Shown here one piece after another: positions 3,219 to 35,551 of a stretch of DNA of 41,292 bases. The notes below the pieces were generated by a model. That model was not told the DNA's origin and did not search any database. It worked only from the letters and a program-made list of their open reading frames with translations. The stretch's first letter is position 1. Every line of letters starts with the position of its first letter. The translations under genes and the position numbers were made by a program. The DNA is from Anaerolineae bacterium (GTDB lineage: Bacteria > Chloroflexota > Anaerolineae > B4-G1 > SLSP01): contig JALXBP010000120.1 of the NCBI GenBank assembly GCA_026991395.1, positions 1-41,292 of the forward strand. Direction: 5' to 3'.

Positions 3219-6221
<3,003 letters not shown>

Positions 6222-28370: not shown

Positions 28371-30566
28371 TCAGCGGACGGGTGGACGGAGCAGCCGCGC
28401 CTTGATGGCCTCGCGGTCCTCGACGGCGGCCTGCTCCAGACATTCCGAGAAAAGCTGGCTGCCTTCGAGGTAGCGCGTCAGGTTTTCTGCGTCCAACGTC
28501 CAGAATGATTCGATGCCGAATTCCTCTTGCAGCCCTTCCTGCAGGGCGGTATGGAAAATCTGCCATTCGTCATCGCCCCAGTTCTCCTCCGGGAGCGGGA
28601 GGGTCATCAGCACGTGGCGCAGGGGGGCGTGCTCACCCTCCCGAAGGCGCTCCCGCAGCGTGGCGAGAACCTCGGCCAAACGAAGAGCGAAGGGAGGCCG
28701 CTTGTCTTGGGAGAGAGCAGGGAGAGAGATCGCAACCAACAGAACGTCAAGCGGCGTGAGGTCCAGTTCTGAGCACGGGTAGGTGCGGGCACGGTCGAGG
28801 ACATGGTCAAGAGCATGGTTGAGGGCATAAGCGAAAGCACGGGAGCGGTCAAGGGCAAGGATGAGCGCGAGGGTGGTGTTGAGGATGCGGACGAGGTCGT
28901 ATGCAAGATCGTGAGTGAGAGCCAAGGCGTGGGCAAGAGCGCGGTTGAGAGCGCGAGCGTGGTTGAGATCATGGTCGCGGGCGAGGGTGAGATACTCGGC
29001 GAGGGAGAGGGTCCAATAAAAATAGAATGCCCGTACCGTAGCCGAGTTGCCATCCACAGCGACCCGCTCCGCTTCCTGCGCTGCCCACGCCAGCAGGCGG
29101 GAGAGCGTTTTGTCTCCGGCGGCGAGTTCATCCAGCGTCCGCTGAATACGCTCGAAGAAGGGCGCAGCGTCGTCCAGCAGGCTGGCGGTGAGGAGGAAGA
29201 CCTCCCGCCAGCGGTCGTCGCCGATGTGGGCCATCAGCCGGTCGAGCGTGCCGGAGGCGGCGTTCTGGACGATGTAGCGGGCGGTGAAGTACTCCTGGAA
29301 GGTGAGGTGGGCGAAGGTGTAGAGGGCATGGGCCTGCTCGACGAAGATGCCGTGCTGGGCGACGATGGCCCGCAGGACATCCGTGCCGACGTCCTCGTCC
29401 ATCTCGTCCGGTGGATGGGGCAGCCGCTTGAGGAAGGCGGCGACCTTCGCCGCCAGTTCCCGCCTGCGGAAGACATACTGCCCCGCGTCGAAGGACTCGG
29501 CGGCGATGCGGGAGAAGAGTTGCCGCTTGCGGCCCACCGTCAGGTCTTTGTAGATGGTGTCGCGCCGAATCTGACGGATGGCATCCCACTTCTTCAGCAG
29601 CGCGTCCACTGCTTCCTCGTATATTTCCGCCCGGCGGGGCGCAAGCTCCTGCGTCTCGTCGAAGGCTAGGCAGATGAGGGAGAGGAGGAGCGGGGTGCGG
29701 CCCAGTTCGCGCAGGGGGGCGTGCTCCTCCTTCTCGAAGAATTCCTGCGAGAAGCGTTCCCACTTCCGCGATTGAGGGCCGAACCAGTGCCGGGCGTAGG
29801 CCCGCATCTGCTCCTCGGTGAAGTCGGCCAGTTCGACGTACTCGAACCGCTCGAAGACGTAGTCGGTGGCGGCAATGCGGCAGGTGATGAGGCATTGGCT
29901 GGGATAGCGGTCGGCGAAGTCCCGCAGTTGCCCGATGGCCTGCTCGCGGCGTCCTTCGGCCCTGGGAACCTCGTCCAGGCCGTCGAAGAGGACGATCGCC
30001 TTGCCGTCTTGCAGCAGCCGTTCGACGAAGGGGCGGGCCTGCGGGAAGCGGCAGATGTCGAACTCGCGGGCGATGAAGTCGAGGAGGGTCTGCTCCCTCA
30101 CCTCCCAATCCCGCAGTGTGACCATGATGGGCACCTTGTCGATCTTCCCCCGTGCGGCCTGCAGGGCCACGTAGCGGAGGAGGGTCGTCTTCCCGGCCCC
30201 TGGCTTGCCCAAGATGAGGAACCGTTGGCGATTGGGATCGGTGATCAGTTTGAGGGCGGGGTACCGCTTGCCGTCGGTCTGCCGCCGGGGCCTCCGCAGG
30301 GCGAAGGATTCCGCAAGACTCTCGCGGTCGTATCGTTGCAGGGCGACCGGCCTGTCCAGAATGAAGAGGTCGGTGAAGATGCCCTCTAAGGGGAGCGGCT
30401 CCGGGTGGCCCAGGACGCGGGTAAAGCCGTACCGCTCGATCACCGCCTCGCGGTAGGCTTGCTCGGCTTGTTTCCAACGCGCCTGATCCCAGAGCCATCG
30501 GATGCCCTCTTTGGTCAACTCTTCGCCGTATTGGCTCCACAGCCAGGATGCCGCCGCTTCGAGCAT
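28371..30566 (-). CDS. NACHT-domain STAND NTPase, likely anti-phage defence
   Basis: 731 residues from ATG 30566, where AGGAGG is five bases upstream; a GTG two codons earlier is less likely. Numbers below count from that GTG. The N-terminal helical module (about 1-75) ends in an EGIFTDLFIL segment common before NACHT domains. The NTPase has Walker A GKPGAGKTT (122-130), Walker B IVLFDGLDEV (193-202), and a winged-helix end with FAHLTFQEYFTARY (420-433). The C-terminal half has a low-complexity helix of Ala, Leu, His, Asn and Asp repeats (about 530-597), then a mixed domain. Bacterial NACHT proteins are known immune sensors that kill or stop the infected cell. There is no separate effector domain such as a nuclease; the N-terminal part may play that role. 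Confidence 0.88.
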   Translation of the reverse strand: MLEAAASWLWSQYGEELTKEGIRWLWDQARWKQAEQAYREAVIERYGFTRVLGHPEPLPLEGIFTDLFILDRPVALQRYDRESLAESFALRRPRRQTDGKRYPALKLITDPNRQRFLILGKPGAGKTTLLRYVALQAARGKIDKVPIMVTLRDWEVREQTLLDFIAREFDICRFPQARPFVERLLQDGKAIVLFDGLDEVPRAEGRREQAIGQLRDFADRYPSQCLITCRIAATDYVFERFEYVELADFTEEQMRAYARHWFGPQSRKWERFSQEFFEKEEHAPLRELGRTPLLLSLICLAFDETQELAPRRAEIYEEAVDALLKKWDAIRQIRRDTIYKDLTVGRKRQLFSRIAAESFDAGQYVFRRRELAAKVAAFLKRLPHPPDEMDEDVGTDVLRAIVAQHGIFVEQAHALYTFAHLTFQEYFTARYIVQNAASGTLDRLMAHIGDDRWREVFLLTASLLDDAAPFFERIQRTLDELAAGDKTLSRLLAWAAQEAERVAVDGNSATVRAFYFYWTLSLAEYLTLARDHDLNHARALNRALAHALALTHDLAYDLVRILNTTLALILALDRSRAFAYALNHALDHVLDRARTYPCSELDLTPLDVLLVAISLPALSQDKRPPFALRLAEVLATLRERLREGEHAPLRHVLMTLPLPEENWGDDEWQIFHTALQEGLQEEFGIESFWTLDAENLTRYLEGSQLFSECLEQAAVEDREAIKARLLRPPVR
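28782..28985 (-). repeat. Degenerate short repeats encoding an Ala/Leu/His/Asp helix
   Basis: Within the NACHT gene, about 68 codons encode irregular units such as LNRALAHAL, LNHALDHVLDRA and LTHDLAYDL. The plus strand is strikingly purine-rich here (runs built on GAG, GCG, GGT). The spacing of Leu and Ala every three to four residues suggests one long amphipathic helix or a solenoid that could grow or shrink by slippage. Confidence 0.6.
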
Positions 30567-30607
30567 ATGCACCTCCTGCGGTGCGCCGTTTGCGCACGTG
30601 TGCCGCT

Positions 30608-30719: not shown

Positions 30720-31091
30720 ATGCGAGGTCAAGGATGGGGACGGGGCGGACCGCGGAGGCGGTGGGGCCGCAGGATGCGGATCGTCGAGCCGATGATCCTG
30801 CTCCTGCTGGCCGAGGAGGCCGGGCACGGCTACGCGCTCCTCAGCCGCCTGCAGACGAGGTTCGGCGTGGAGGGCATGCCACCGCAGACCGTCTACCGGC
30901 TGCTGCAGGAGATGGAAAGCCGCGGCTGGGTGGCCTCCGATTGGGATGTGGAGACGCGGCAAGGGCCGCCGCGCCGCATCTACCGCATCACCGAAGCGGG
31001 CCGCGAAATCCTCAATGCCTGGGCCGTCGAGATGCGCTCCTTGGAGGAGATGGTCGCACGCTTCCTGGAGGCTTACGGCCGTTTGCGTTGA
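30720..31091 (+). CDS. PadR-family transcriptional regulator
   Basis: A 123-residue protein. A very basic, Gly/Arg-rich N-terminal tail (residues 1-19) is followed by the PadR winged helix: IVEPMILLLLAEEAGHGYALLSRL in consecutive segments, the recognition helix in PPQTVYRLLQEMESRGWV, and the wing RQGPPRRIYRITEAGRE. The C-terminal dimer helix is short, as in the PadR-s2 group. Its promoter carries a near-perfect dyad, so it probably represses itself and the downstream genes until a ligand or metal signal arrives. An AAAGGAG site lies seven bases before the ATG. The next gene begins 30 bases later. Confidence 0.92.
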   Translation: MRGQGWGRGGPRRRWGRRMRIVEPMILLLLAEEAGHGYALLSRLQTRFGVEGMPPQTVYRLLQEMESRGWVASDWDVETRQGPPRRIYRITEAGREILNAWAVEMRSLEEMVARFLEAYGRLR

Positions 31092-31121
31092 AAACCGTTC
31101 TGCACGAAGGAGGTGAGAACG

Positions 31122-31463
31122 ATGTTCGGTTATGGCTATGGTCGTGGATACGGACGCGGTTTCGGTGGTTGGGGCCGCGGGATGGGCTACGGGCGCGGCT
31201 GGGGCCGCGGGGCCTGCCTGGACTACTACCGCACCTACGGGCGCTGGCCTGCTTGGTCCCGCTGGGCCGGTGGCCCCGGCTACTGGCGTGCCGCGGCGAT
31301 GGGGATGGTCGATGAGCCGCCCGTCGCCCCTGTGCCGCCCGTTGCGCCCGCTCCCGGCGCTCCCATGCCCCCGCGGGCGGATGAGGTTACCGCCTTGCGC
31401 GAGGAGGTTGCCGCGCTCCGTGCCCAGATCGACGAGGCGCTGCGTCGTCTCGGCGATCTGTGA
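31122..31463 (+). CDS. Gly/Arg/Tyr-rich protein with C-terminal coiled coil (DUF5320-like)
   Basis: A 113-residue protein in three parts. Residues 1-30 are repeats of GYGRG and GWGRG; residues 31-55 are aromatic with one Cys (ACLDYYRTYGRW..); residues 65-85 are Pro/Ala-rich. A coiled coil, ADEVTALREEVAALR and onward, fills 86-113. Small Gly-rich proteins with such tails (DUF5320) often accompany NifX-like and MinD/ferredoxin genes in anaerobes. No enzyme motif is visible; the head may bind metal, RNA or partners. The tail closely resembles that of the NifX-like protein at 32033. The start uses ATG 31122, nine bases after AGGAGG. Confidence 0.75.
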   Translation: MFGYGYGRGYGRGFGGWGRGMGYGRGWGRGACLDYYRTYGRWPAWSRWAGGPGYWRAAAMGMVDEPPVAPVPPVAPAPGAPMPPRADEVTALREEVAALRAQIDEALRRLGDL

Positions 31464-31471
31464 GCATCGCT

Positions 31472-31505
31472 GCGGGGTGCAGGGTCGGCGCACCCTGCGC
31501 CCCGC
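31472..31505 (+). other. Large intergenic hairpin without U-run
   Basis: A 14-pair stem (31472-31485 with 31492-31505, one G-T wobble, loop CGGCGC) between the DUF5320-like and PH-like genes. It is followed by CCCTTG, so it is a poor terminator. A processing or stabilising element that sets different amounts of the first two and later proteins is possible. Confidence 0.55.
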
Positions 31506-31529
31506 CCCTTGCAGCCGCGGAGGTGAACG

Positions 31530-31988
31530 ATGACGCTCTACAGACACAGGCAGATCGGCACGCTCCTCATCGTCGTGCTTGGGCTTGGCACTGTGCTCAC
31601 AGGGGCGCTTCTGCTGCAAGCAGGCGAGAGCACCGCCCGGCTGCCGCTCGGCCTCGTCCTGGTGCTGCTCATCGCGAGTGCCGTCCTCTTTGCCTCGCTC
31701 ACCGTCGAGGTTCGGCGCGACGGGATCGTCGTGAGCTTCGGCCCCGGCCTCATCCGCCGGATCATCCCCATCGGCGACATCCGCGATGTGCGGGTCGTGC
31801 GCAATCGCTGGTACTACGGCTGGGGGATTCGCCGGATACCGGGAGGCTGGCTCTACAACGTCTCCGGCTTGGAGGCGGTCGAGTTGCAGCTTGCCAACGG
31901 TCGCCGCTTCCGTATCGGCACGGATGAGCCGCAGCGTCTGGCCGAGGCCATCCGTCAGGCAATGCAAACATCCCCACCGGCAGCCTGA
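31530..31988 (+). CDS. PH-like membrane protein
   Basis: A 152-residue protein. Two hydrophobic helices (about 10-30, GTLLIVVLGLGTVLTGALLL, and 38-57, PLGLVLVLLIASAVLFASL) are followed by a beta-rich domain. That domain starts LTVEVRRDGIVVSFGPG and includes IRRIIPIGDIRDVRVV, then YNVSGLEAVELQLANGRRFRIGTDEP. This is the usual design of small bacterial PH-like (bPH) proteins, with the domain in the cytosol. It may anchor or scaffold the products of this operon at the membrane. A GCGGAGGT site precedes the ATG. No catalytic residues are expected. Confidence 0.75.
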   Translation: MTLYRHRQIGTLLIVVLGLGTVLTGALLLQAGESTARLPLGLVLVLLIASAVLFASLTVEVRRDGIVVSFGPGLIRRIIPIGDIRDVRVVRNRWYYGWGIRRIPGGWLYNVSGLEAVELQLANGRRFRIGTDEPQRLAEAIRQAMQTSPPAA

Positions 31989-32032
31989 GGGCCTGGCCGG
32001 TTAGAAGAACACAAGTTCGAGGAGGTTTACCG

Positions 32033-32533
32033 ATGAAGATCGCTATCACCGCATCCGGTCCGACAATGAACGATCAGGTCGATTCCCGCTTTGGTCGCTG
32101 CGCCTACTTCCTCTTCGTGGAGACGGAGAGCGGCGCGATGCAGGCCGTTCCCAATCCGGCGGCGGCGAGCAGCAGCGGCGCGGGGATTCAGGCGGCGCAG
32201 TTCGTCGTCCAGCAGGGGGCGCAGGCCGTGCTGAGCGGCAACATCGGCCCCAACTCCTTCGACGTGCTGCAGGCCGCCGGTGTGCCGGTTTACATCGCCA
32301 CCGGCATGACCGCCGCGCAGGCGGTGGAGGCCTTCCGCGCCGGGCGACTGGTCGCCACAGGGGGCGCGACGCACAGCGACTCGCACCATCACCACGGCGG
32401 GCCTGCCGTCCCCCCGCCGCCCGCTCCGCCCGCTCCGGCGGACGAGGTGGCCGCGCTGAAGGAGGAGGTCGCCGCGCTGCGCAAGTCCTTGGCCGATTTG
32501 CTCGACAAGATCGACAAGCTGAGCAAGAAGTAG
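32033..32533 (+). CDS. NifX/NifB-family cofactor-binding protein 1, His-rich, coiled-coil tail
   Basis: A 166-residue protein. Residues 1-110 match the dinitrogenase iron-molybdenum cofactor biosynthesis fold: MKIAITASGPTMNDQVDSRFGRCAYFLF with its Cys23, AQAVLSGNIGPNSFDVLQAAGVPVYI, and AVEAFRAGRL. A His cluster (114 and 118-121) follows, then Pro-rich 124-135 and a coiled coil 136-166 beginning ADEVAALKEEVAALR. The fold holds Fe-S or Mo-containing clusters in NifX, NafY and the Mo-Cu protein ORP. With no nitrogenase nearby, a role in cluster storage or insertion for another system is likelier. Start: GAGGAGG, eight bases before ATG. Confidence 0.88.
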   Translation: MKIAITASGPTMNDQVDSRFGRCAYFLFVETESGAMQAVPNPAAASSSGAGIQAAQFVVQQGAQAVLSGNIGPNSFDVLQAAGVPVYIATGMTAAQAVEAFRAGRLVATGGATHSDSHHHHGGPAVPPPPAPPAPADEVAALKEEVAALRKSLADLLDKIDKLSKK

Positions 32534-32561
32534 TCCCAAGGGAGGGCGGAGGGAGGGAACG

Positions 32562-32930
32562 ATGATGAAGGAAACGAACGAGACGCTGCCCGCCGTCGTC
32601 GAAGGCGAGATCGTCGAGGCGACGCCGCCGATCATCGAGGTACGGCCAGATGCCGCCCCCTCGCGCTCGGCGCGGATCGTGGAGCGAGGGCTGGCGCTGC
32701 TCTCCTCGCTGGCGAGGGTGGGGCTTCGCCTGCTGGAGGCCCGCGAGGAGGCCGCCGCCGTCTCGCAGATGACGGCGGGACGGACGGGCGTCGCCTCCAA
32801 TCCGGCGATGCCTGCCTCCTCCACCCCGCCGCTCCCCGCCGATGAGGCGTGGCCTGCGGCGCGGGGGCGCGGCGCAGGACGAGGGGGCGGGGGACGCCGT
32901 CGGCGACGCCGCCGTCGGGGTGGCCTGTAA
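32562..32930 (+). CDS. Hypothetical protein with Arg/Gly-rich C-terminal tail
   Basis: 122 residues, family not recognised. An acidic N-terminus (TLPAVVEGEIVEATPPIIEVRP) leads to a possible amphipathic helix (about 36-72, SARIVERGLALLSSLARVGLRLLEAREEAAA). A Pro/Ser/Ala stretch follows, and the last 22 residues are almost only Gly and Arg, including eight Arg in a row. That tail could bind nucleic acid, acidic partners or the membrane. The gene has its own GGAGGGAGGG site and sits between the two NifX-like genes, so it is likely expressed with them. Its GC content and Pro/Arg bias match the neighbours. Confidence 0.6.
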   Translation: MMKETNETLPAVVEGEIVEATPPIIEVRPDAAPSRSARIVERGLALLSSLARVGLRLLEAREEAAAVSQMTAGRTGVASNPAMPASSTPPLPADEAWPAARGRGAGRGGGGRRRRRRRRGGL

Positions 32931-32956
32931 AATCCACTTAGGAGGAAGAGAGAACG

Positions 32957-33424
32957 ATGCGTATCGCTATTGCTGCCGATGATCCACGCGGCCTGGAAAG
33001 CGTGGTTTCCCATCACTTCGGACGCTGTCCCTACTACGTCTTCGTGGACCTGGAGGGGAAGGAGGTGCAGAAGGTGGAGGCGCTGCCCAACCCCGGCGCG
33101 GCGCATCACGCGCCCGGCGAGGTGCCCGCCTTCATCCACGCGCAGGGCGCGGAGGTGGTCATCTCCGGCGGGATGGGACAACGGGCTATCGCCCTCTTCC
33201 ACCAATACGGCATCCGCCCCTACACGGGCGCTTCCGGCTCCGTGCGCCACGTGCTGGAGGCGCTGGTCGGCGGGGCGTTAGAGGATGCTCGCCCGTGCAA
33301 GGATGAAGGCGACGAGGCGGAGGGTGAGCACGACGAGGCCCACCGCCTGCGTGAGGAGGTCGAGGCGCTGCGCTGCCAACTCGACGAGGCGGCGCGGCTT
33401 CTGGACGGGATCGCGGGGGAGTGA
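32957..33424 (+). CDS. NifX/NifB-family cofactor-binding protein 2, coiled-coil tail
   Basis: A 155-residue paralogue of the protein at 32033. The core (1-110) has MRIAIAADDPRGLESVVSHHFGRCPYYVFV with His19-His20 and Cys24, GAEVVISGGMGQRAIALFHQYGI, and VRHVLEALVGGAL. His49-His50-His51-type residues near AAHHAPGE may help bind metal. A charged linker with Cys114 precedes a coiled coil (about 127-152, AHRLREEVEALRCQLDEA). Two different NifX-like proteins in one operon suggest a hetero-oligomer or a donor-acceptor pair. An AGGAGG-type site precedes the ATG. Confidence 0.88.
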   Translation: MRIAIAADDPRGLESVVSHHFGRCPYYVFVDLEGKEVQKVEALPNPGAAHHAPGEVPAFIHAQGAEVVISGGMGQRAIALFHQYGIRPYTGASGSVRHVLEALVGGALEDARPCKDEGDEAEGEHDEAHRLREEVEALRCQLDEAARLLDGIAGE

Positions 33425-33458: not shown

Positions 33459-34331
33459 ATGCGCATAACCGTAGCAAGCGGCAAGGGAGGGACGGGCAAG
33501 ACGACGGTCGCCGTCAATCTGGCGCTGAGCCTGGCCGCCGCCGGTCGCGCCGTAACCTTCCTCGACTGTGATGTGGAGGAGCCGAACGCGCACATCTTCC
33601 TCCGCCCGCAGATCGAGCGGGAGGAGACGACGGGTATCCTCATCCCGGAGGTGGACGACGATCGCTGCACCTACTGCGGACGTTGTGCCGAGGTCTGCGT
33701 CTTCCACGCGATCGCCGTCATCGGCACGAAGGTGCTCGTCTTCCCGGAGCTATGCCACGGCTGCGGGAGTTGCGCCTACAACTGTCCGGAGAAGGCGATC
33801 ACCGAGGTGTTGCATCCCACGGCCAGGCTGCGCTGGGGGAAGGCGACCGGCGAGGGCACGCCCATCGCCTTCGGGGAAGGGGTGCTCGACGTGGGGCAGG
33901 CGATGGCCACGCCGGTCATCCGCGAGTTGAAGAAGAAGGGCCTGCCTGCCGAGGAGGAGTCCATCGCCATCCTCGATGCGCCGCCGGGCAACTCCTGCCC
34001 CGTGGTGGAGACGATGCGCGGCTCCGACTTCGTGCTGCTCGTTACCGAGCCGACGCCCTTCGGGCTGCACGACCTGCGGCTGGCAGTGCAGGTGGCCCGT
34101 GAGGAGCTTGGACTGCCCGCCGGGGTGGTCATCAACCGCGACGGGGTGGGCGACGATTCGGTGGAGCGCTTCTGCGCCGAGGCCGGTATCCCCATCCTGA
34201 TGCGCATTCCGCTCGACCGGCGGATCGCGGAGGCTTACGCGCAGGGCGAGACGATCGTGGCGCGGCTCCCGGAGTACCGCGAGCGCTTCCAGGCGCTCTA
34301 CCGCCGCATCGAGGAGGAGGTGGGACGATGA
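33459..34331 (+). CDS. MinD/ParA-type ATPase with inserted 2x[4Fe-4S] ferredoxin domain, copy 1
   Basis: A 290-residue protein. Deviant Walker A GKGGTGKTT (8-16) and FLDCDVEEPNAH open the ATPase. A ferredoxin-like insert at about 65-115 carries Cys70/73/76/80 and Cys99/102/105/109, enough for two [4Fe-4S] clusters. The ATPase resumes with IAILDAPPGNSCPVVETM (switch II) and VLLVTEPTPFGLHDLRLAV. Such proteins occur beside NifX-like genes in anaerobes and in the Desulfovibrio ORP complex, where they are thought to act in metal-cluster assembly. The longer frame to 33285 overlaps the previous gene and lacks a start signal; ATG 33459 follows CGGAGGAG. It overlaps copy 2 by ATGA. Confidence 0.93.
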   Translation: MRITVASGKGGTGKTTVAVNLALSLAAAGRAVTFLDCDVEEPNAHIFLRPQIEREETTGILIPEVDDDRCTYCGRCAEVCVFHAIAVIGTKVLVFPELCHGCGSCAYNCPEKAITEVLHPTARLRWGKATGEGTPIAFGEGVLDVGQAMATPVIRELKKKGLPAEEESIAILDAPPGNSCPVVETMRGSDFVLLVTEPTPFGLHDLRLAVQVAREELGLPAGVVINRDGVGDDSVERFCAEAGIPILMRIPLDRRIAEAYAQGETIVARLPEYRERFQALYRRIEEEVGR

Positions 34332-35242
34332 GCACGGCACCGAAGCAACTGGTCATCATCAGCGGCAAGGGCGGCACGGGCAAGACGAGCCTCGCGGCGG
34401 CGATTGCCCATCTGGCCGCGGGGGAATTGCCCATCGTCATCGCGGATGCGGACGTGGACGCGGCCAACCTCGACCTGGTGCTCCATCCCACCCGGCTGGA
34501 GAGCCATCCCTTCTCCAACGGGCTGGTGGCGGAGATCGATGAGGAAAAGTGCATCTCCTGCGGGCTGTGCGAGGAGGCCTGCCGCTTCGACGCCATCCTC
34601 GTGCCGGATCGGACGGGCGACCCTTACGGGATCGACGAGGTGGCCTGCGATGGCTGCGCCGCCTGCGTCTATCACTGCCCGGTCGAGGCGATCACGATGC
34701 GCGAGCCGCAGGTCGGCGAGTGGTACCTCTCCGAGACGCCCTACGGGCCGCTCTACCACGCCCATCTCTTCGCCGGGGCCGATAATTCCGGCAAGCTGGT
34801 TACGCTGGTCAAGCAGCAGGCCAAGCTGCGGGCGATGGACGATGGCCGCCCGCTGGTCGTCGTGGACGGGCCGCCGGGGATCGGCTGTCCGGTCATCTCC
34901 GCCGCCTCCGGGGCAGACCTGGCGCTCATCGTCGTCGAGCCGACGCTTTCCGGGGCGCACGATCTGGCGCGGGTACTTGAGTTGACCGATCACTTCGGCG
35001 TCCCGGCGCTGGTGGCGATCAACAAGGGCGATCTGAGCGAGCAGCAGAGCGCGGCCATCGAGGCCTTCTGCCGCGAGCGCGGCGTCGCCTTGTCGGTTCG
35101 CATTCCTTATGATACCCTTGTAACCGAGGCGATGGTGGCCGGGCAACCGATCACCGCCTGGGCCGAAAGTCCGGCAGCGCAGGCCATCCGTGCGCTCTGG
35201 GCGACGATCAAGGCGCGACTGGGGCTACAGGGAAAGGAGTGA
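34328..35242 (+). CDS. MinD/ParA-type ATPase with inserted 2x[4Fe-4S] ferredoxin domain, copy 2
   Basis: A 304-residue paralogue of copy 1. Walker A GKGGTGKTS (13-21), VIADADVDAANLDLVL, ferredoxin insert with Cys75/78/81/85 and Cys107/110/113/117, then VVVDGPPGIGCPVISAASGADLALIVVEP in consecutive segments. The overlap with copy 1 and the equal design suggest a heterodimer, as MinD-type ATPases work as dimers with ATP between subunits. Both copies keep the signature and catalytic lysines, unlike the CpaE-like protein at 18534. Ends four bases before the MIP18-family gene. Confidence 0.93.
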   Translation: MSTAPKQLVIISGKGGTGKTSLAAAIAHLAAGELPIVIADADVDAANLDLVLHPTRLESHPFSNGLVAEIDEEKCISCGLCEEACRFDAILVPDRTGDPYGIDEVACDGCAACVYHCPVEAITMREPQVGEWYLSETPYGPLYHAHLFAGADNSGKLVTLVKQQAKLRAMDDGRPLVVVDGPPGIGCPVISAASGADLALIVVEPTLSGAHDLARVLELTDHFGVPALVAINKGDLSEQQSAAIEAFCRERGVALSVRIPYDTLVTEAMVAGQPITAWAESPAAQAIRALWATIKARLGLQGKE

Positions 35243-35245
35243 GCG

Positions 35246-35551
35246 ATGGCGCTGGAACCTACGCTGCGTGAGAAGGTTCTGATGCGATTGGCGACGGTCA
35301 TCGATCCGGAGACGGGGGCGGACGTCCTGCGGATGCGGCTCATCGAGGAGCTGGAGGCGGATGAGGCGAGCGGTTTCGTCCGCTACCGCTTCCGCCCCTC
35401 CTCGCCGCTCTGTCCGATCGCCGTTACGCTGGCGCACGACATCAAGAAGGCGGTCGCCGAGGTGGAGGGTGTGAAGAAGCAGGAGATCGAGGTCGTCGGC
35501 TACATCAAGGCCGAGGAGTTGACCCGTCTGCTCAATCAGGAAGAGGCGTAG
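35246..35551 (+). CDS. MIP18/DUF59-family iron-sulfur assembly protein
   Basis: A 101-residue protein of the family that includes SufT, PaaD and human CIAO2. It has LREKVLMRLATVIDPETGADVLRMRLIEEL in consecutive segments, where the family has a (V)xDPE motif. PSSPLCPIAVTLAHDIKKAV carries the single Cys56 at the usual reactive position, and VEGVKKQEIEVVGY ends the domain. The family helps mature Fe-S or other metal proteins and is often linked to Mrp/NBP35-type ATPases. As the last gene of the operon, just after two MinD/ferredoxin ATPases, it supports a role for the whole set in building or inserting a metal cluster. Confidence 0.88.
   Translation: MALEPTLREKVLMRLATVIDPETGADVLRMRLIEELEADEASGFVRYRFRPSSPLCPIAVTLAHDIKKAVAEVEGVKKQEIEVVGYIKAEELTRLLNQEEA

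Follow-up and report, generated by a model that had tools for sequence, protein, structure and literature searches.

A Putative DUF5320-Type Coiled-Coil Tail Shared by Three Proteins of an ORP-Like Operon in an Anaerolineae Bacterium

The systems closest to the operon described here are built around proteins of the NifX fold. In IssA, the thioferrate storage protein of Pyrococcus furiosus, a NifX-fold core binds iron and sulfide, and a C-terminal tail of 70 residues, Pro-rich at first and thereafter Gly/aromatic/cationic (15 Gly, 14 aromatic, and 7 cationic residues, with a predicted pI of 10.7), is proposed to wrap the anionic thioferrate (PMC5524996). In the ORP system of Desulfovibrio, two MinD-type ATPases that carry 4Fe-4S motifs, Orp3 and Orp4, accompany a NifX-type protein, and a Mrp/ORP protein is polar in this genus (PMC6345978). 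The nitrogenase cofactor carriers NifX and NafY share the same fold.

We analyzed a contig of an Anaerolineae bacterium (GenBank assembly GCA_026991395.1, contig JALXBP010000120.1), the full 41,292 nucleotides of which are referred to as the window. The operon considered here, together with the parts of the three proteins (D, N1, and N2) on which the argument turns, is laid out in the window as follows.

30720..31091, + strand: PadR-type regulator at the head of the operon (Pfam PF03551, 63.4 bits).
31122..31463, + strand: D, a DUF5320-like protein of 113 aa with a Gly/Arg/aromatic head, a Pro linker, and a coil (PF17253, 19.2 bits over model positions 11 to 98, under the curated cutoff of 27 bits).
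31122..31295, + strand: D head, 58 aa, by composition 19 Gly, 16 aromatic, and 9 Arg/Lys residues, pI 10.4.
31305..31376, + strand: D linker, Pro/Ala-rich by sequence.
31380..31460, + strand: D coiled-coil tail, DEVTALREEVAALRAQIDEALRRLGDL, residues 87 to 113 (27 aa).
31530..31988, + strand: predicted membrane protein within the operon, with a weak bacterial PH-domain match.
32033..32533, + strand: N1, a NifX/ORP/MTH1175-type protein of 166 aa with a coil tail (PF02579, 80.4 bits).
32369..32440, + strand: N1 linker, HxxxHHHH and then Pro/Ala (alignment A1), where relatives have (GMGRG)n.
32441..32530, + strand: N1 coiled-coil tail, DEVAALKEEVAALRKSLADLLDKIDKLSKK, residues 137 to 166.
32562..32930, + strand: protein of 122 aa lying between N1 and N2; it has a short hydrophobic helix, and its C terminus is rich in Gly and Arg.
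32957..33424, + strand: N2, a second NifX-type protein (PH0822/TM1816-like) of 155 aa with a coil tail (PF02579, 82.1 bits).
33296..33331, + strand: N2 linker, starting at a Cys that is invariant in alignment A2; the linker is His-rich in many relatives.
33332..33421, + strand: N2 coiled-coil tail, DEAHRLREEVEALRCQLDEAARLLDGIAGE, residues 126 to 155.
33459..34331, + strand: MinD/Mrp-type P-loop ATPase with two 4Fe-4S motifs, Orp3/Orp4-like (PF10609, PF01656, PF00037).
34328..35242, + strand: second MinD-type P-loop ATPase with two 4Fe-4S motifs (PF01656, PF00037).
35246..35551, + strand: protein of the MIP18/DUF59 Fe-S assembly family (PF01883, 47.6 bits).

The start of D is placed at the ATG at 31122, just downstream of an AAGGAGG that resembles a ribosome-binding site, and the GTG at 31113 is an unlikely alternative. 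No relative of the predicted membrane protein was found in the other loci searched. The 122-aa protein has no Pfam match, and its relatives, which range from weak to clear (L066, L068, L067, L084, and L072; L numbers designate loci), lie mostly beside the same operon. On the minus strand, divergent from the operon, a large open frame (28371 to 30572) carries the P-loop GKPGAGKTT and reads like a NACHT/STAND-type NTPase.

Both N1 and N2 pass the 26.3-bit cutoff of PF02579 (Nitro_FeMo-Co, the NifX fold). Against the PDB, N1 matches 1eo1 with an E value of 1.2e-21 and resembles MTH1175, TM1290, and ORP, while N2 matches 2yx6 with an E value of 1.2e-27 and resembles PH0822 and TM1816. The operon resembles the ORP complex in that a NifX-type protein is accompanied by two MinD-type ATPases, both bearing a pair of 4Fe-4S motifs, and in the fold of N1, whose top Foldseek match is ORP itself (2wfb; TM score of 0.90 by target, 42% identity). 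The window differs from that system in having no MrpORP fusion, the NF041136 matches being only partial and spread over separate proteins, and in possessing a PadR-type head gene, two NifX proteins, a DUF5320-like protein, and shared coil tails. NifX and NafY (9ian_F and 1p90 among the Foldseek matches) are distant, at about 20% identity, and it is the window proteins that bear coil tails instead; no nif genes occur among the operon genes examined.

The comparison with IssA involves D as well as N1. The head of D has the makeup of the IssA C-tail, a likeness of composition and not of homology, but resides on a separate chain, whereas the cationic tail of IssA is on the same chain as its core and no coil is described for that protein. 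N1 has the MTH1175-type core, and many of its relatives carry G/R/M repeats in cis, but in the window N1 itself lacks a cationic Gly/aromatic region, its linker being composed of His, Pro, and Ala. A strictly complementary distribution, in which a locus has either an N1 with (GMGRG)n or a standalone DUF5320 gene, was considered and is not supported: many relatives have both, such that the two halves of a "split IssA" are not strictly complementary in their distribution.

A preliminary description of the window held that D, N1, and N2 end in similar C-terminal heptad helices, and our analyses bear out both the claim and its coordinates. The tails align without gaps (DEVTALREEVAALRAQIDEALRRLGDL in D, DEVAALKEEVAALRKSLADLLDKIDKL in N1, and DEAHRLREEVEALRCQLDEAARLLDGI in N2) as four heptads in one register, with hydrophobic a and d positions and a common DExxxLxEEVxALR pattern. 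Local alignment of the tail regions yields scores of 84 (D-N1), 71 (D-N2), and 46 (N1-N2), against shuffled means of 22 to 24; no plain shuffle out of 2,000 reaches the observed score for any pair, and shuffles of the coil part that preserve the heptads do so in 6, 0, and 7 cases out of 2,000, respectively. As the decisive control, a search of the bacterium's own 2.46-Mb genome with D as the query recovers the N1 tail (E value of 1.2e-4; 51% over D residues 76 to 113) and the N2 tail (E value of 0.016; 57% over residues 86 to 113) and, at an E value of ≤0.1, no other sense-strand match, the sole remaining match being antisense to D itself. The description also placed a Pro/Ala linker before two of the tails, which agrees with the Pro-rich linkers of D and N1; that of N2 is acidic and follows the conserved Cys. 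His-rich stretches directly precede the coils (THSDSHHHH in N1, at 32369 to 32400, and, in relatives of N2, HGHG or HEHEH after a Cys), which suggests putative metal sites.

In proteins of the Pfam family DUF5320 (PF17253), a head rich in Gly and Arg is followed by a linker and then by a coil at the C terminus. D shares the Gly/Arg-rich head, the aromatic-Pro linker, and the C-terminal coil, and shows the head and the coil beside NifX genes, as looked for in a DUF5320 member; standalone DUF5320 genes likewise adjoin N1 in relatives. It differs in scoring below the cutoff and in lacking the usual MGPMTGRGAGYC start. Orthologs of D are present in L066, L068, L069, and L072, the last of which scores 22.4 bits. 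Among NifX-type proteins, PF17253 passes its cutoff on the N1 relatives in L082, L106, and L067 (39.3, 42.7, and 36.6 bits) and on one N2 relative (L073, 29.1 bits), from which it follows that standalone and NifX-fused forms coexist; N1 of the window scores 14.6 bits only. When 24,736 Pfam families are considered, PF17253 is the second most common match after the NifX domain, present in 15 of the 24 N1 orthologs and 11 of the 19 N2 orthologs, and it outranks every other coiled-coil family, with part of its score coming from Gly-rich sequence. Relatives of N1 often consist of the NifX core with (GMGRG)n, a Pro linker, and a coil, an architecture that amounts to a fusion of NifX with a DUF5320 module, and the N1 coil of L113 is of the DUF5320 sequence type. 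Judged by sequence, the tail appears to be the C-terminal module of DUF5320, and the three tails would be copies of one old module. Our search of the open-access literature yielded nothing on the function of DUF5320, nor any description of NifX-family proteins with coiled-coil tails. In many relatives (L081, L083, L088, L098, L161, and L187), DUF5320 is preceded by a small protein that starts with TGRGEGYC or similar and ends in GRGRGR-type repeats.

Beyond the window, the same three genes with the same three tails recur in genomes of its family, order, class, and phylum, the ranks from which nearly all relatives were drawn; a scan of named genomes returned only two loci. In tail alignments set in register by hand, which also served for the nearest-neighbor and codon analyses, every a and d position holds a hydrophobic residue in at least 84% of the 19 D, 22 N1, and 18 N2 tails, and Leu stands at the first d position in all of them. 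Among the 38 loci with both NifX genes, 23 have tails on both proteins, 15 on neither, and none on only one. On a tree of concatenated cores, the N1 and N2 tail states switch about three times, jointly each time and twice on well-supported branches; given two to three independent changes, for which a sign test yields a P value of 0.5, we dropped this concordance as a formal proof.

Tail-less homologs thus form a subset rather than extending throughout the family, and in that subset, both NifX proteins are without tails. MinD-type ATPases are present in the tail-less loci as well, and DUF5320 retains its coil where N1 and N2 are tail-less (L170, L174, L176, L177, L186, and L189), which indicates that the coil of D also functions where NifX coils are missing, perhaps by homo-oligomerization. 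Within the same family, a second type of NifX operon (L086, L087, L090 to L095, L097, and L104) has no coils on N1 or N2: the N1 core ends an open frame, with some 140 to 150 residues ahead of the core in most cases, N2 stops after a CxESxxHGHG motif, and the same MinD-type ATPases occur in several. L085 combines the N1 and N2 cores in one open frame and places the N1 tail in another (4097 to 5290 and 4374 to 4799), a layout that reads as a sequence frameshift or a broken gene.

As to how the tails came to be shared, the preliminary description noted that their DNA is similar and proposed that they had spread by local duplication. The similarity does exist, but at a level to be expected from the amino acids that the tails have in common: the tail DNAs of D and N1 are identical at 47 of 81 nucleotides, against 45.7 expected from back-translation with local codon usage (P = 0.36), and those of D and N2 at 53 of 81, against 50.2 expected (P = 0.18). 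Between N1 and N2, 10 of 11 codons are identical, against 5.3 expected (P = 0.004), a weak hint of local duplication or gene conversion, with no excess in overall nucleotide identity (P = 0.15). For 58 of 59 tails, the nearest tail is that of the same gene in another genome. Because the tails cluster by gene and the D-N1 and D-N2 nucleotide identities are as predicted, we regard the sharing as old and reject recent local duplication or gene conversion as its source. Within-genome coevolution of the tails is significant by simple permutation, although the D-N1 signal is largely between clades; for D-N2 and N1-N2, same-genome tails are somewhat more alike than cross-genome tails even within the larger clade, in a comparison not corrected for the tree.

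AlphaFold2 models of N1 and N2, based on alignments that contain 24 and 19 sequences, respectively, predict each tail as a single helix (residues 136 to 165 in N1 and 125 to 153 in N2) that is parted from the NifX core by a low-confidence linker. Block means of pLDDT are 92 to 97 over residues 141 to 166 of N1 and 88 to 89 over residues 131 to 150 of N2. In all six pairings of the window tails, the g-e' charge pairs are favorable in the parallel orientation (+4 each) and range from -1 to +1 in the antiparallel orientation, a pattern that supports pairing in every combination without choosing between homomers and heteromers.

Given that relatives either retain the tail or lose it from N1 and N2 jointly, the shared 27-residue coil is probably how the trio assembles. 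The idea of a common docking or co-assembly tag gains indirect support from conserved in-register coils in many families of the phylum, the concordance of N1 and N2, the predicted helices, and the DUF5320-NifX fusions; the spread by local duplication attached to it is not supported. The reading that we favor, with confidence that is evenly balanced, is that the old DUF5320 coil on D, N1, and N2 pairs these proteins into one oligomer. Pairing of the coils would most likely be parallel, in register, and rather promiscuous; the N1 and N2 cores would bind an iron-sulfide or related metal cluster; the head of D would act in trans as the flexible cationic surface, which in IssA is part of the same chain, as its C-tail, and in many N1 relatives takes the form of (GMGRG)n ahead of the coil; and the resulting assembly would be acted on by the MinD-type 4Fe-4S ATPases in the manner of the Desulfovibrio ORP system.

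It is also possible, if somewhat doubtful, that the same coil was inherited or borrowed by each protein only to form its own homodimer or homotrimer, with no joint complex. The gene-by-gene clustering of the tails, with residues specific to each gene, and the persistence of the DUF5320 coil where the NifX proteins have none would both fit such an arrangement, in which charge pairing is as good as in heteromers, but the tails of N1 and N2 come and go together, and the same-genome resemblance of the D-N2 and N1-N2 tails is likewise at odds with it. We consider it improbable that the tail docks D, N1, and N2 onto a separate partner, either the MinD-type ATPases or a membrane or polar scaffold, instead of onto each other: two such ATPases are encoded in the operon and persist beside tailed loci, and a Mrp/ORP protein of Desulfovibrio is polar, but the genome search with D reveals no matching coil on the ATPases, which also occur in tail-less loci, and the self-complementary heptad pattern speaks for coil-coil pairing. 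Convergence, by which generic E/K/R/A/L-rich coils would look alike in a high-GC genome and their resemblance would be uninformative, is highly improbable and was discarded, since low complexity and the weak match of N1 to designed coiled coils in the PDB are outweighed by the equal length, position, and register of the tails in three families, by the own-genome search, and by the preference of the curated DUF5320 model for NifX tails.

Taking the single-oligomer reading further, and more tentatively, the operon may encode a modular version of IssA and ORP, in which the DUF5320 coil joins two NifX-fold proteins and a Gly/Arg/aromatic protein that wraps or nucleates iron-sulfide into a hetero-oligomeric store or assembly particle served by the MinD-type Fe-S ATPases; this would be the first function for DUF5320. 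A module that is shared, and in some cases fused, links this uncharacterized family to the cluster carriers of the NifX family, and the finding suggests that iron-sulfide storage of the anaerobe type, as in IssA, and ORP-type complexes may be buildable from interchangeable parts.
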